Positions 14,806-19,150 of a stretch of 64,000 bases of DNA are shown piece by piece. The stretch is from Fidelibacterota bacterium (GTDB taxonomy: Bacteria; Fidelibacterota; Marinisomatia; SCGC-AAA003-L08; TS1B11). Below the pieces are notes generated by a model. That model was given only the letters and a program-made list of their open reading frames with translations, did not search any database and was not told where the DNA came from. The position numbers were made by a program, and so were the translations under genes. The stretch is from assembly GCA_020354025.1 (NCBI GenBank), contig CP070638.1, forward strand, positions 1,687,243 through 1,751,242. Reading direction: 5' to 3'. Positions within the stretch are counted from its first letter, which is position 1; the number at the start of each line of letters is the position of its first letter.

Positions 14806-14825
14806 GAAAACGGTATGACTTGAAT

Positions 14826-15425
14826 ATGGATAGCCATGAGCAACGTCTTGTCCATAGGTTTCGTGAAGGAGATGCGGCGGCCTTCCGGGAACTGGTTGAA
14901 CGCTGTCAGGAACCTGTTTTTCAACTGGCCATCGAGCTGACCGGTGATTGGGACGATGCAGACGATTTATCGCAACAGGTGTTTATCAAGGCCTATCGCG
15001 CCCTACCCAACTTCAGGGGAGAGACTAAGATAATGTCCTGGCTATATCGAATAATGGTGAATACACACATAGACAACGCCCGTAAAAATCGCGCTCTAGG
15101 TTGGCGGATTAATCCTTCCTCCCCGGACGAGGACCAGTCTCAAGCGGAGCCGTATATCACCCACACGGCCGATGACAATCCCGAAACCCGAACTGCCTCC
15201 CATTACATGCAGGATCATATCAACCGGGCCCTTGAGACCCTGGCCCCCCGGCAGCGCTCGGTCTTTGTCCTGCGCCATTACCACGATCTGTCGCTGAAAG
15301 AAATTGCGCGTATCCTGGGTCTGTCAGTGGGTACGGTGAAAAGCCAGCTGTTTCGGGCTATCCAACGCATGCAGAAGGAACTGGCCTTTTACAAGGCGGA
15401 ACTCGGCTTGGAGGAATCCTCATGA
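14826..15425 (+). CDS. ECF-subfamily RNA polymerase sigma factor
   Basis: This is an alternative sigma factor of about 199 residues with only regions 2 and 4. Region 2 spans AFRELVERCQEPVFQLA to WLYRIMVNTHIDNARK and includes DDLSQQVFIKAYRALPNF. Region 4 near the C-terminus reads PRQRSVFVLRHYHDLSLKE and ILGLSVGTVKSQLFRA. I chose the ATG at 14826 over a TTG at 14820. The stop overlaps the next gene, a zinc-finger anti-sigma factor, in an ATGA arrangement, and an ECF-type promoter lies just upstream. The stimulus is unknown. Confidence 0.93.
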   Translation: MDSHEQRLVHRFREGDAAAFRELVERCQEPVFQLAIELTGDWDDADDLSQQVFIKAYRALPNFRGETKIMSWLYRIMVNTHIDNARKNRALGWRINPSSPDEDQSQAEPYITHTADDNPETRTASHYMQDHINRALETLAPRQRSVFVLRHYHDLSLKEIARILGLSVGTVKSQLFRAIQRMQKELAFYKAELGLEESS

Positions 15426-16261
15426 GTAGTTGCAGCAGATGTCAGAAAATGATGGCGGGAGCGCTTTATCAGGAACTTGCTCCCCACCACCAGCAGGCTT
15501 TTGATGCGCACCTGGCGACTTGCCCCAATTGTGCCGAGGAGTACCAACAGCTTTTATGGACCCTGAACATCATGGACCAGCGGCAGCCACCTGCAATAGA
15601 TCCCGCCTACTGGGAAGGTTTCTGGAACCGCCTGTCAGACCGCCTGAAACCAGACAGAAGGAAGGTATTCCGGCCCGACTGGCGCAGGTGGTTCCCGCCG
15701 GTGACACTTCCTGTCCGCCCGGCATGGGTATCGGTGGCGGCCGCGGTACTACTGATCGCTACCGGGGTATATATCGGGCGATCTATCTATCTGGGCCAGC
15801 CGAATGGCCCGGCCGCTGTCACCCGGGCCGAGGTACTCGACCCAGCTGTCATTGCCGAATTCAACGGCATGCTGTCACATTACCTGGGGCAGTCCAGAAG
15901 CCTGCTGCTCGGGCTGGAGAATTTCGATACCGGGTATGACGATCCGGCCCTCCTGGATTTCCCCCGGCAGCAGATGATGTCCTGGGAGCTGCTGGTGCAG
16001 GGCCAGGAGATCAAACGCCATGCGGTTGCCTCAAGCGATCCCCGGCTCCAGCATCTGGTGAACGAAATCGAGCGCGTTCTGCTTCAGCTGGCCAATAGCG
16101 AAGGTGAAGACCTGGAATGGACTATCCGGCTGGTACAGGAAGGTGTGGAACAGAATGCCATCCTGGTGAAGATCAATCTGACCGAACAGGAACAGGGCGA
16201 GGAGGTTATCGAGGAAAGCAAGTCCTTGCAGGGTGTGAAAAAATCAGCCCTGTGGATATAA
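15422..16261 (+). CDS. Zinc-finger anti-sigma factor, single membrane span
   Basis: This 279-residue protein probably holds the ECF sigma factor inactive at the inner membrane. The N-terminal zf-HC2/ZAS motif is H30-x3-C34-x2-C37, with further cysteines C4 and C7. One membrane helix follows at about residues 101-118 (AWVSVAAAVLLIATGVYI). The C-terminal ~160 residues are predicted to be outside the cytoplasm and rich in charged helices, with no domain I recognise. It overlaps the sigma gene by 4 bases, so the two are made together. The sensing step, probably proteolysis or a conformational change, cannot be read from sequence. Confidence 0.88.
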   Translation: MSSCSRCQKMMAGALYQELAPHHQQAFDAHLATCPNCAEEYQQLLWTLNIMDQRQPPAIDPAYWEGFWNRLSDRLKPDRRKVFRPDWRRWFPPVTLPVRPAWVSVAAAVLLIATGVYIGRSIYLGQPNGPAAVTRAEVLDPAVIAEFNGMLSHYLGQSRSLLLGLENFDTGYDDPALLDFPRQQMMSWELLVQGQEIKRHAVASSDPRLQHLVNEIERVLLQLANSEGEDLEWTIRLVQEGVEQNAILVKINLTEQEQGEEVIEESKSLQGVKKSALWI

Positions 16262-16279
16262 TTTAGGAGGATATTGGAA

Positions 16280-17494
16280 ATGAGCGATCAAAACCATTGT
16301 GTAATACCTGGTACAGGTCCGAAGAACAGGTACCTGTCGTTGCTTGTGGTCACTTTAGTTATAGTGCTGCCGCTGCAAGCCCAGGTCCCAGGAGCACCCC
16401 GGCCTCCCCGAGAGGCTAGAGTAGATACGGCAATCCAGCTATCCCCGGCTCCGGAGATTTATGTTTTTCCGGATCTTGAAGATGAAATTATGTTGCCGGA
16501 GCTCGAGTATATTGAGGAATTACTCGAACAACAGGAGCTCCAGCGTGAGTTTCTTGAGGAACGAAGATTTGAGGATGCGGTAAAGCTCCAGGAGGAAGCC
16601 GCCCGGGCTCAGCGGGAAGCCGTCCGGGCTTATCGTATGAGTACAAGACTGGCCGAGACGCCGGAAACCCTGGAGGCCTATCAGGATGCCTATGGACTTA
16701 TCCTTGACCAGAGATGGAAAGAGGCCCGCAATGCCTACGAGGAGTTCCTCGAGAAATATTCGGAAAGCCGGTACGTCGATGACGCCCGCTTCTGGATCTG
16801 CTACTCAATGGAGCAGGCCGGTCTGTCTCCCGAGGAGGTATTCAGGGCCTATCACAAATTCATCCAGGAATTTGCCAACAGCAAGTGGCTGGATGACGCC
16901 CGGGCCAATCTCATCCGGATCGGCCGGGACCTGGCGGCAAAAAGCAGGAAGGCCAAAGCCGAATACGGTCCTATCATCGAACAGCTCGAAGAGGAATACA
17001 ATATCGAGGTGACTATCGCCACTCTCGACCGGCTGAGTTACCATAGCAGCAAAAATACACTTAAAGCTGTTTTCGGGCTTTATGATCGCACTAAAAACGA
17101 TGAGCTGCGCAAGAAGATCGTATATGCCCTGAGGCGCTTTGATGATAAAGCGGTGTTGGACAAGCTGGGAAACATAGCTCGTAATGATCCGAATCCGGAC
17201 ATCCGTCAGGCGGCCGTTGAAGCCATCGGCAGGCGCGGAGGCAAAGAGGCCTTCGAGATACTGAAGTCCATCATCGAAGGTGAGGGCACTACGGAGGTTA
17301 GACAACAAGCGATCCGCTCCTTAGTGCGCCGTCACTTGCGGCGGAGTGAGAGTAAGGAGGCAGTTTCCCTCCTTCTGGAATTAGCCCGGAATGACCCCCA
17401 TGTTAAGGTACGCACCGAAGCAGTCTCGGCCCTGTCCCGGATTACTACTTCCGATGCCCAGGAGGCATTGATCATGCTTCTGGAAGGTAAATAA
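16280..17494 (+). CDS. Exported TPR/HEAT-repeat protein in the sigma operon
   Basis: The ATG at 16280 has an AGGAGG ribosome binding site at 16265-16270. Residues about 17-37 form a signal peptide (LSLLVVTLVIVLPLQAQ). A coiled, glutamate- and glutamine-rich stretch (residues 60-110) comes next, then TPR-like tool-type repeats (RWKEARNAYEEFLEKYSES, EEVFRAYHKFIQEFANSKW). The C-terminal half has HEAT-like repeats such as DPNPDIRQAAVEAIGRRGG and DPHVKVRTEAVSALSRI. The 404-residue protein is the third gene behind the sigma/anti-sigma pair, 18 bases after its stop, so it is probably a target of that sigma factor. It is likely a periplasmic scaffold; no catalytic motif is visible. Confidence 0.8.
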   Translation: MSDQNHCVIPGTGPKNRYLSLLVVTLVIVLPLQAQVPGAPRPPREARVDTAIQLSPAPEIYVFPDLEDEIMLPELEYIEELLEQQELQREFLEERRFEDAVKLQEEAARAQREAVRAYRMSTRLAETPETLEAYQDAYGLILDQRWKEARNAYEEFLEKYSESRYVDDARFWICYSMEQAGLSPEEVFRAYHKFIQEFANSKWLDDARANLIRIGRDLAAKSRKAKAEYGPIIEQLEEEYNIEVTIATLDRLSYHSSKNTLKAVFGLYDRTKNDELRKKIVYALRRFDDKAVLDKLGNIARNDPNPDIRQAAVEAIGRRGGKEAFEILKSIIEGEGTTEVRQQAIRSLVRRHLRRSESKEAVSLLLELARNDPHVKVRTEAVSALSRITTSDAQEALIMLLEGK

Positions 17495-17571: not shown

Positions 17572-18042
17572 TCACCTGCTGCGGTTCAGCAGTTGCATAT
17601 ACTGCACATCCATCTGCGATTCCCGCCGTAGGTAAAATCCTACCGCCAGTCCCGCGACCACCGTTACGGTTGCCGTATATATTAACACCATGATCGGTGT
17701 GATGGTGGACAGGGCAGGCAGGATCAGCTCGCTCAAGACCGGGATTTGCGATATATCCGGGAGCGTGAAGTCCCGCAGGGCTGTGATGCGGGGCAGCTCG
17801 GGCAGGCTGAGGCTTCGCGTCGCATTCGTTAAAATGTTATATAGACCAGATCCATAGCGGATAGCCACCCACAGGAAGCCAGGAATCAGGGCGAGCACGG
17901 GCGCCAGCCAGCGCAGGTCCAGAAAGGAAGGGCGCTCCTGCAGCGCGGGAATTGCCCGCAGCCGGGCTTCGAGGCCGGGCGGCAGGTCCACCTGGGCCTC
18001 CCGGAAAACCTGCTGGAGTTCATCAAACGGTTGCTCCTTCAT
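17572..18042 (-). CDS. Small two-span membrane protein partnered with the second ECF sigma factor
   Basis: This 156-residue protein follows the second sigma factor with an ATGA overlap, the position of an anti-sigma factor. Unlike the first locus it has no HxxxCxxC zinc motif. Two hydrophobic segments are visible, LAPVLALIPGFLWVAI (about residues 46-61) and a second one around residues 113-140 (PIMVLIYTATVTVVAGLAV). A short acidic N-terminal region (EQPFDELQQVFREAQVDLPPGLEARLRAI) could contact the sigma factor. I infer an atypical anti-sigma factor from context only. The 3' end converges on the HEAT protein gene. Confidence 0.65.
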   Translation of the reverse strand: MKEQPFDELQQVFREAQVDLPPGLEARLRAIPALQERPSFLDLRWLAPVLALIPGFLWVAIRYGSGLYNILTNATRSLSLPELPRITALRDFTLPDISQIPVLSELILPALSTITPIMVLIYTATVTVVAGLAVGFYLRRESQMDVQYMQLLNRSR

Positions 18043-18605
18043 GTGGAACTCCTTTCCTCCGGCCCCAGGGTCTGCGCCAATGCCGCCTTGGCCCGGTGGA
18101 GGTATGATTTAATGGTCCCTAGTGGCATGTTCATGACAGCTGCCACTTCTTCGTACGTCAGCTCCTGGAAATAGTGCAGGGTGACGGCCAGCCGCTGCTT
18201 GGGGGGCAGCTGCCCTACCGCCCGGCGCAGCTGCGCGTGCTGCCAGCCGGACTGGTAAGTCGCCCCGGGATCGACCCCGGCGGTGTCGACCAGCGCTTCC
18301 GCATCGAACTCCTCGTCCAGGCCCGCCGGGCGTTGTTTACGATGGTAATCGTAGCAGACATTTTTCACAATGCGGTACATCCAGGTACTCAGCTTAGCCG
18401 TCCCCTTGAACTTGCCCAAGCCCCGGTAGATTCTGATAAAGGCGTCCTGGGTGGCGTCCTGGGCCAGAATTTCGTCGTCCAATGTAAATAATGCGATGTT
18501 ATACATGGCTTTCCCGTGGATCTCCACCAGTTGTTGAAAAGCACCGTTCCGATCACCCGACCGGAATTTATCAAGGATTTCCTGGTCGGCGACCACTGTC
18601 ATCAC
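18039..18605 (-). CDS. Second ECF-subfamily RNA polymerase sigma factor
   Basis: This sigma factor has 188 residues with region 2 (AQDATQDAFIRIYRGLGKF, TWMYRIVKNVCYDYHRK) and region 4 (LPPKQRLAVTLHYFQELTYEEVAAV and MPLGTIKSYLHRAKAAL). A GTG at 18605 sits 9 bases from AGGAGG (18615-18620 on the opposite strand); the ATG at 18602 is the alternative. Its own putative promoter is one half of a symmetric pair shared with the divergent gene at 18720. The -10 box lies between the AGGAGG and the start codon, so use of that promoter would remove the ribosome binding site. The following gene is probably its regulator. Confidence 0.92.
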   Translation of the reverse strand: MMTVVADQEILDKFRSGDRNGAFQQLVEIHGKAMYNIALFTLDDEILAQDATQDAFIRIYRGLGKFKGTAKLSTWMYRIVKNVCYDYHRKQRPAGLDEEFDAEALVDTAGVDPGATYQSGWQHAQLRRAVGQLPPKQRLAVTLHYFQELTYEEVAAVMNMPLGTIKSYLHRAKAALAQTLGPEERSST

Positions 18606-18608
18606 CTA

Positions 18609-18697
18609 TAAGACCTCCTTACAATACAAATTGTTGCACTTCCAACCTACGGGCCAGGAAAAAAATGTGCAACAATTTATTCGGCTGCCCCGTCTTA
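18609..18697. promoter_or_regulatory. Mirror-image pair of ECF-type promoters between sigma gene and DUF6249-like gene
   Basis: GTGCAACAATTT occurs on the plus strand at 18667-18678 and, perfectly inverted, on the minus strand at 18639-18628. On each strand exactly 13 bases separate it from GTCTTA (18692-18697 plus, 18614-18609 minus). The form matches an ECF -35 box containing CAAC followed by a GTC-type -10 box. The two copies face away from each other, one toward the sigma gene at 18605 and one toward the gene at 18720. The simplest reading is autoregulation with a divergent target. Confidence 0.6.
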
Positions 18698-18719
18698 CGG
18701 GCAGAAAGGAGTAAATATT

Positions 18720-19076
18720 ATGCTTGATCTTGTTCCAATCGTAGCTTTGCTGTCAACGTTTGGCGCTGCCGGTGTCATTCTCGTATTCCTTATCGTTTAT
18801 AATTACAGGAAGCGGCAGCTGCAGGGGCAGGAGATCCTGGCGGCCATCGAGAAGGGCATAGACATACCTTTCCCGCCCCCGAAGAAGCGGAACTACCTGA
18901 ATCTGGGGCTGGTCTGGACTTTCGTGGGTGTGGCTTTTACTCTGGCCCTGTGGTTCTCTGCCAGGATTATGGAAGCAGCCGCCTGGGGGTTCCTGCCAAT
19001 AGCCCTTGGATTAGCTTTCCTGCTGATCGCTCTTATCGAGGGAAAAAAGAAAGCCAACGAAGGCGAAGAAGCCTAG
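18720..19076 (+). CDS. Small membrane protein, DUF6249-like
   Basis: The protein has 118 residues with three hydrophobic segments: LVPIVALLSTFGAAGVILVF at the start, LGLVWTFVGVAFTLALWF around residue 60, and WGFLPIALGLAFLLIALI near residue 90. The cytoplasmic loop between the first and second carries KRQLQGQEILAAIEKG. This arrangement resembles DUF6249 membrane proteins that often sit beside ECF sigma factors. AAAGGAG lies 8 bases before the ATG. An ECF-type promoter mirrors the one in front of the neighbouring sigma factor, so it is a candidate regulon member. Function is unknown. Confidence 0.75.
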   Translation: MLDLVPIVALLSTFGAAGVILVFLIVYNYRKRQLQGQEILAAIEKGIDIPFPPPKKRNYLNLGLVWTFVGVAFTLALWFSARIMEAAAWGFLPIALGLAFLLIALIEGKKKANEGEEA

Positions 19077-19099
19077 ATCACCTGCTGAATTTTGACAGG

Positions 19100-19150
19100 G
19101 GCTTCGCTCGACCGGTTGACTGCCGGTCACGGGCGGAGCCTTGCCTTTTT
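19100..19150 (+). terminator. Intrinsic terminator after the DUF6249-like gene
   Basis: A two-part hairpin lies 23 bases after the stop codon. The outer stem is GGCTTC/GGAGCC (19100-19105 with 19135-19140) and the inner stem is GACCGG/CCGGTC around a TTGACTG loop. A T-rich run, TTGCCTTTTT, follows at 19141-19150. One T-G wobble occurs in the outer stem. The layout fits rho-independent termination on the plus strand. Confidence 0.65.

Follow-up and report, generated by a model that had tools for sequence, protein, structure and literature searches.

Predicted mirrored ECF-type promoters between a sigma factor operon and a divergent DUF6249 gene in Fidelibacterota, with a probably leaderless sigma message

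What controls an extracytoplasmic function (ECF) sigma factor gene and the small membrane protein gene pointing away from it when a perfect 12-base inverted repeat lies between the two? This arrangement was found in a 64,000-nucleotide stretch of a Fidelibacterota genome (assembly GCA_020354025.1, contig CP070638.1, positions 1,687,243 to 1,751,242; hereafter the window), in which the sigma gene and an overlapping gene for a protein of 156 amino acids (aa) lie to the left of the repeat and a DUF6249 gene lies to its right. The repeat spans 18628-18678, with the GTGCAACAATTT arms at 18667-18678 (+) and 18639-18628 (-) identical at every base and facing away from each other, and GTCTTA follows each arm after a gap of 13 bases. 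These positions matched exactly an earlier interpretation made from the letters of the window (the sequence-only reading), which took the elements to be mirrored ECF promoters and proposed a self-controlled sigma factor that also drives the DUF6249-like gene. Conservation across related loci supported this proposal. The two elements are very probably back-to-back ECF promoters (TGCAAC-N18-GTCTTA), read by the sigma factor at 18039-18605 and driving both the operon of that factor and the DUF6249 gene that diverges from it, with a leaderless sigma message.

Sixty windows were simulated with the first-order composition of the real one and searched for perfect 12-base inverted repeats in which the same hexamer follows both arms at a common offset (8-20). 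One such arrangement arose among the 60, and the window itself contains one. The arrangement had been called unlikely by chance, and unlikely it is, but a single 64 kb window is no more than suggestive. The comparative evidence for the mirrored elements is much stronger than that of the window alone, and on the sequences compared the relatives settle the question of chance and show the arrangement to be old.

The comparison set comprised 32 ECF sigma/DUF6249 loci (L numbers) from 31 genomes of the phylum (G numbers), representing seven families; 27 loci were reached via DUF6249 and five via the sigma factor, four of the latter being checked as DUF6249 and one (L101) read by eye in a sequence that is partly N. 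On the sigma side, at least 10 of 12 scored promoter positions were matched in all 32 loci, at least 11 in 29 and all 12 in 20. Among 1600 resampled stretches of the same composition, a score of 10 was found in 40 and a score of 12 in none. In a harder control, made up of 18 ECF genes of the phylum that came from the sigma search and not via DUF6249, five scored 10 and none scored 12. The mirrored element on the divergent side (at least 10 of 12) was present in 30 of the 32 loci, and the two spacers of a locus agreed with each other: 18/18 in 26 loci, 17/17 in three and 18/17 in one. This agreement fits the strict elements and rigid spacer that ECF polymerases need, as described in the available part of a structural study (PMC6411747).

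The position of the sigma-side promoter bears on how the sigma factor is translated. Transcription from ECF promoters starts about 5-7 bases past the -10 element, and in the window the -10 ends six bases before the sigma ATG (18602). Since AGGAGG overlaps the -10, it would be missing from an RNA that begins some 7 bases beyond that element, and it is probably absent from the autoregulated message. The sequence-only reading had likewise placed the -10 past AGGAGG, with loss of the ribosome site; the overlap agrees in its coordinates, and the start position is a predicted one. Among the 31 loci with a distance value (L080 had no in-frame ATG by the rule used), the first in-frame ATG lay 4-10 bases past the sigma-side -10 in 26, while on the divergent side the gene started 20-81 bases past the -10 in 29 of 30. 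Five of 31 sigma genes (the window's included) had Shine-Dalgarno pairing of -5 kcal/mol or better, compared with 28 of 30 genes on the divergent side and 26 of 31 putative anti-sigma genes; the starts of DUF6249 and anti-sigma genes were set by rule and not by annotation, and the anti-sigma starts of L071, L082 and L097 are doubtful. In L003, a close relative, GTCTTA is kept and TCCGGGG stands in place of the window's AAGGAGG. The sigma message is thus probably leaderless.

The predicted sites are scarce outside the module. In the 3.4 Mb genome that contains the window (G000), the pattern TGCAACAATTT-N13-GTCWTA with at most two mismatches matched only these two places, and a reversed control pattern gave two matches. 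With the same tolerance, 11 genomes of family f1 gave 14 matches, 11 at the module and three elsewhere (control, eight), and TGCAACNNTN15GTCWTA in 11 genomes gave eight matches, all at the module (control, one). An exact clade-specific pattern, TGCAACA-N17-GTCTAA, was matched 24 times in 19 related genomes, 23 times at the module (control, none), eight of the 19 genomes having no match to it. The earlier interpretation had proposed a genome-wide search and had let the lack of further copies count against it. No other copy of the strict pattern was found, but in related genomes the sites are confined to the module in the same way; this absence is therefore no refutation and points to a regulon that may be very local.

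Several observations weigh against mirrored promoters read by the local sigma factor with a leaderless message. The weakest sigma-side loci, L073, L074 and L092, with a score of 10, were no better than five of the 18 control ECF genes, and these three alone are not convincing. L082 and L086 lacked a good divergent element. In five sigma genes the first in-frame ATG lay 17-38 bases past the -10, and in L080 there was none; other start codons may serve in these genes, and in the window itself GTG at 18603-18605 (-) is an in-frame alternative. The AAGGAGG of the window had the best sigma-side pairing of the set (-12.8) and could serve a read-through message. Finally, of 38 matches to a loose pattern in the 11 f1 genomes, 21 lay at the module and 17 outside it; the control gave nine, and given this slight excess the sigma factor may have a few additional weak targets. 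None of the four off-module places in G000 stood before an open reading frame (ORF) of at least 90 aa at which it points; three were inside ORFs and the fourth pointed toward an ORF-less stretch. A wider regulon was unsupported, the stricter patterns being mostly confined to the module.

The sequence-only reading had left the choice between leaderless translation and a second promoter. The mirrored promoters could be right, with a basal promoter further upstream supplying the message from which the sigma factor is normally translated by way of AGGAGG; the leaderless start would then be incidental. We consider this unlikely. Besides AAGGAGG at the proper distance in the window, two other loci speak for it, L072 with a strong, related run of purines (-9.3) and L095 with GGAGG (-9.8), and a basal promoter beside autoregulated ones is known for an ECF gene, Mycobacterium tuberculosis sigE (P1), from what was available of PMC10027907. 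Nevertheless, strong pairing is restricted to the few sigma genes counted above, and a scan of 18500-19130 with one simple sigma-70 consensus found no promoter pointing at the sigma gene. Leaderless translation is favoured because the -10-to-ATG distance is kept in most loci while AGGAGG is mostly absent.

It is quite improbable that the promoters are real and are read by another ECF sigma factor of the same genome. G000 does have two more matches to the window sigma, one of which lies within the window at 14820-15425. However, across the loci recovered the sites accompany the sigma gene and adjoin it, paralogous copies of the module carry their own pairs in G001 and in G127 (three copies, on contigs C21, C29 and C95), and changes of spacer on the two sides are coupled.

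The perfect 12-base symmetry in the window could also suggest an operator of a dimeric repressor or activator in place of two promoters, which we regard as very improbable. The distance between the -35 elements varied from 14 to 104 bases across the loci, which argues for two promoters and not one operator; symmetry beyond TGCAACA was lost in the relatives, and GTC-type hexamers were found at 17-18 bases on both sides. The operator was rejected on this variable arm spacing, with only the -35 and -10 parts kept. On the same grounds an RNA hairpin (attenuator or bidirectional terminator) was rejected as hardly credible: the intergenic strand folds better than its shuffles (-35.5 kcal/mol, z -4.87), but good folding is expected of any perfect repeat, and both transcripts are predicted to start beyond the arms, which would thus not be transcribed.

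Two back-to-back ECF promoters thus remain the preferred interpretation, and the proteins of the module are in keeping with it (Table 1). The sigma factor, which matches solved ECF sigma factors from residue 1, has Sigma70_r2 at residues 26-92 and Sigma70_r4_2 at 124-176 and scores above the cut-off of TIGR02937, and no sigma3 family was reported at E 0.01. It therefore has the sigma2 and sigma4 regions without sigma3 and the short linker of an ECF (group IV) factor, together with an AAC-type -35 and a CGT/GTC-type -10 (TGCAAC-N18-GTC), of which one or the other deviates by at least one base in some loci. Its nearest named relative, 84% identical, is from a Candidatus Neomarinimicrobiota metagenome-assembled genome.

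The second protein of the operon is a putative membrane anti-sigma factor, its role being suggested by position and topology. In 23 aligned sequences a short conserved N-terminus with PP...L..IP precedes hydrophobic segments, and the model has two short and two long helices with moderate confidence (mean predicted local distance difference test score, pLDDT, 74). A Pfam search with the window's protein gave no family, a fold search with the model no match and a sequence search of solved structures no relative. As for DUF5056 (PF16479) as an anti-sigma family, the window protein had no match and the L115 protein reached 18.7 bits against a cut-off of 28. In the same slot, L092 has a zf-HC2 score of 21.6 bits, just under the cut-off of 22.2, and L073, L074 and L079 show H-x3-C-x2-C by eye, but no Pfam match. 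The DUF6249 protein scored 52.1 bits with PF19762 (cut-off 33) and was modelled with a mean pLDDT of 88.9; a fold search gave no match at E 0.001 or better, and a sequence search of solved structures no relative.

Table 1. Features of the module, in window coordinates
Feature	Position	Strand	Remarks
-35 of sigma promoter, TGCAAC	18633..18638	-	Inside arm 18628-18639; same spacing before sigma genes of relatives
-10 of sigma promoter, GTCTTA	18609..18614	-	18 bases past TGCAAC; kept in L003, where AGGAGG is not
AGGAGG, Shine-Dalgarno-like	18614..18619	-	Last base is first base of GTCTTA; overlaps -10
ATG of sigma factor and predicted transcription start (leaderless)	18600..18602	-	6 bases past -10
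ECF sigma factor, 188 aa	18039..18605	-	Pfam Sigma70_r2 8.2e-17, Sigma70_r4_2 1.3e-19
Putative membrane anti-sigma factor, 156 aa	17572..18042	-	From position; overlaps sigma gene by 4 bases (ATGA)
-35 of DUF6249 promoter, TGCAAC	18668..18673	+	Inside arm 18667-18678; from sequence and conservation
-10 of DUF6249 promoter, GTCTTA	18692..18697	+	From sequence and conservation
Shine-Dalgarno AAAGGAG of DUF6249 gene	18705..18711	+	Downstream of DUF6249 promoter; Shine-Dalgarno pairing on divergent side of relatives
DUF6249 small membrane protein, 118 aa	18720..19076	+	PF19762 E 6.9e-14; three predicted long helices

Some further features were observed around these genes. In the predicted fold of 18684-18704 in the window, the DUF-side -10 lies within the loop of a small CTGCCC/GGGCAG hairpin, which was not seen by eye in L072. 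In family f22 (L091, L093, L095-L100), an ATG lies about 7 bases past the DUF-side -10 (CGATGAA) and opens short reading frames, varied in length, ahead of the Shine-Dalgarno site, which may be a leaderless upstream ORF or merely a conserved initial sequence. The stretch 14820-17494 (+) of the window, convergent with the studied operon, holds a second ECF sigma gene, a zf-HC2 anti-sigma gene (15422-16261, E 2.1e-6) and a HEAT-repeat gene.

An ortholog of the sigma factor was found at E 1.4e-57 or better in each of the 11 genomes searched from the window's family. Of 149 genomes searched in the phylum, 30 contained DUF6249, and an ECF ORF stood alongside it in 27 of the 30 loci returned, on the opposite strand in 26 (24 directly adjoining, two with an intervening gene) and on the same strand in one. 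Outside the set of 32 were five further DUF6249 matches and L087, L089 and L094, which have no ECF ORF in the stretch examined and form a DUF6249 subfamily whose middle segment differs. In the sigma tree, made by a quick method, 30 of the 32 module sigma factors fell on one branch (Shimodaira-Hasegawa-like approximate likelihood ratio test support 92, below the 95 mark); those of L076 and L092, both long branches, stood outside it. The sigma frame of L076 is split into two ORFs, through a frameshift or in a broken gene. In Pseudomonadota, DUF6249 was found in 13 of 249 genomes and adjoined an ECF gene in all 13 (12 downstream on the same strand, one divergent); one of the 13, G177, had been reached via an ECF search, and the single DUF6249 match among eight other genomes tried was G177 itself. 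A divergent Pseudomonadota locus, L127, has TGCAAC-N16 on both sides, read by eye from the sequence. Upstream of five Pseudomonadota DUF6249-ECF operons (L118, L121, L123, L125, L126), a TGCATC-N17-type element with ATCT or GTCT was seen by eye, perhaps the promoter variant of this branch. Through its adjacent ECF genes in both phyla, DUF6249 is linked to ECF signalling.

We infer the following working of the module from its arrangement. A signal-dependent loss of the membrane anti-sigma factor would free the sigma factor, which would transcribe, and so amplify, the operon that encodes it together with the DUF6249 gene on the other side, other strongly matching targets being few or absent. The sigma message would begin at its ATG or no more than about two bases away and be translated leaderless, and DUF6249 and the anti-sigma factor would be translated with Shine-Dalgarno sites, so that sigma output per message would be low relative to both. 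Each burst might then yield proportionally more inhibitor and target than sigma factor and make the switch self-limiting. More tentatively, and with considerable doubt, the module may be a three-part switch found in at least two phyla, consisting of an ECF sigma factor, a minimal zinc-less anti-sigma factor and DUF6249 as a dedicated third component, with essentially one outside target in Neomarinimicrobiota; the leaderless start would be a kept control element that holds the sigma factor below the anti-sigma factor and DUF6249, and DUF6249 might feed back on the anti-sigma factor in the membrane. Leaderless translation of a regulator is apparently kept here while its neighbours use Shine-Dalgarno sites, and so small a circuit lends itself to testing what purpose a leaderless start serves.

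Precedents exist singly for autoregulation, for divergent targets and for a leaderless, self-driven sigma factor; our literature search found no paper on the combination of these elements, and none describing DUF6249, for which the only paper retrieved was an unrelated one on plants, or DUF5056. According to the available part of a review (PMC8103513), the original defining features of ECF factors were an AAC/CGT promoter, a co-transcribed anti-sigma factor and positive autoregulation. The module resembles autoregulated group IV ECF systems in its sigma2 and sigma4 regions, AAC in the -35, a downstream membrane protein gene and a promoter before its own operon, and differs in the TGCAAC-to-GTC spacer of 18, in strict sites confined to the module and in the probable leaderless sigma message. 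For the last, the closest likeness is P2 of M. tuberculosis sigE, which coincides with the start codon and from which the SigE polymerase itself makes a leaderless sigma mRNA, as stated in the part of PMC10027907 at hand; the accessible text of PMC4921905 also reports leaderless sigE mRNA, under other promoter numbering and not attributed to SigE. There P2 is one of three promoters and linked to MprAB, whereas here the leaderless start is probably the self-driven one, is kept across many genomes and has a mirrored twin. Divergent targets are known for RpoE7 (ECF16) of Sinorhizobium meliloti, whose most highly expressed targets, in the portion of PMC6180224 available, are four genes divergent from rpoE7-ecfR7, although the sigma group and the targets are different and that portion makes no mention of a leaderless start. 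The EcfG/PhyR-NepR locus of Alphaproteobacteria, as covered in the same part of the review (PMC8103513), also has two divergent units driven by the locus-encoded sigma factor; that system commands a global stress regulon through partner-switching, whereas the strict sites found here are local.
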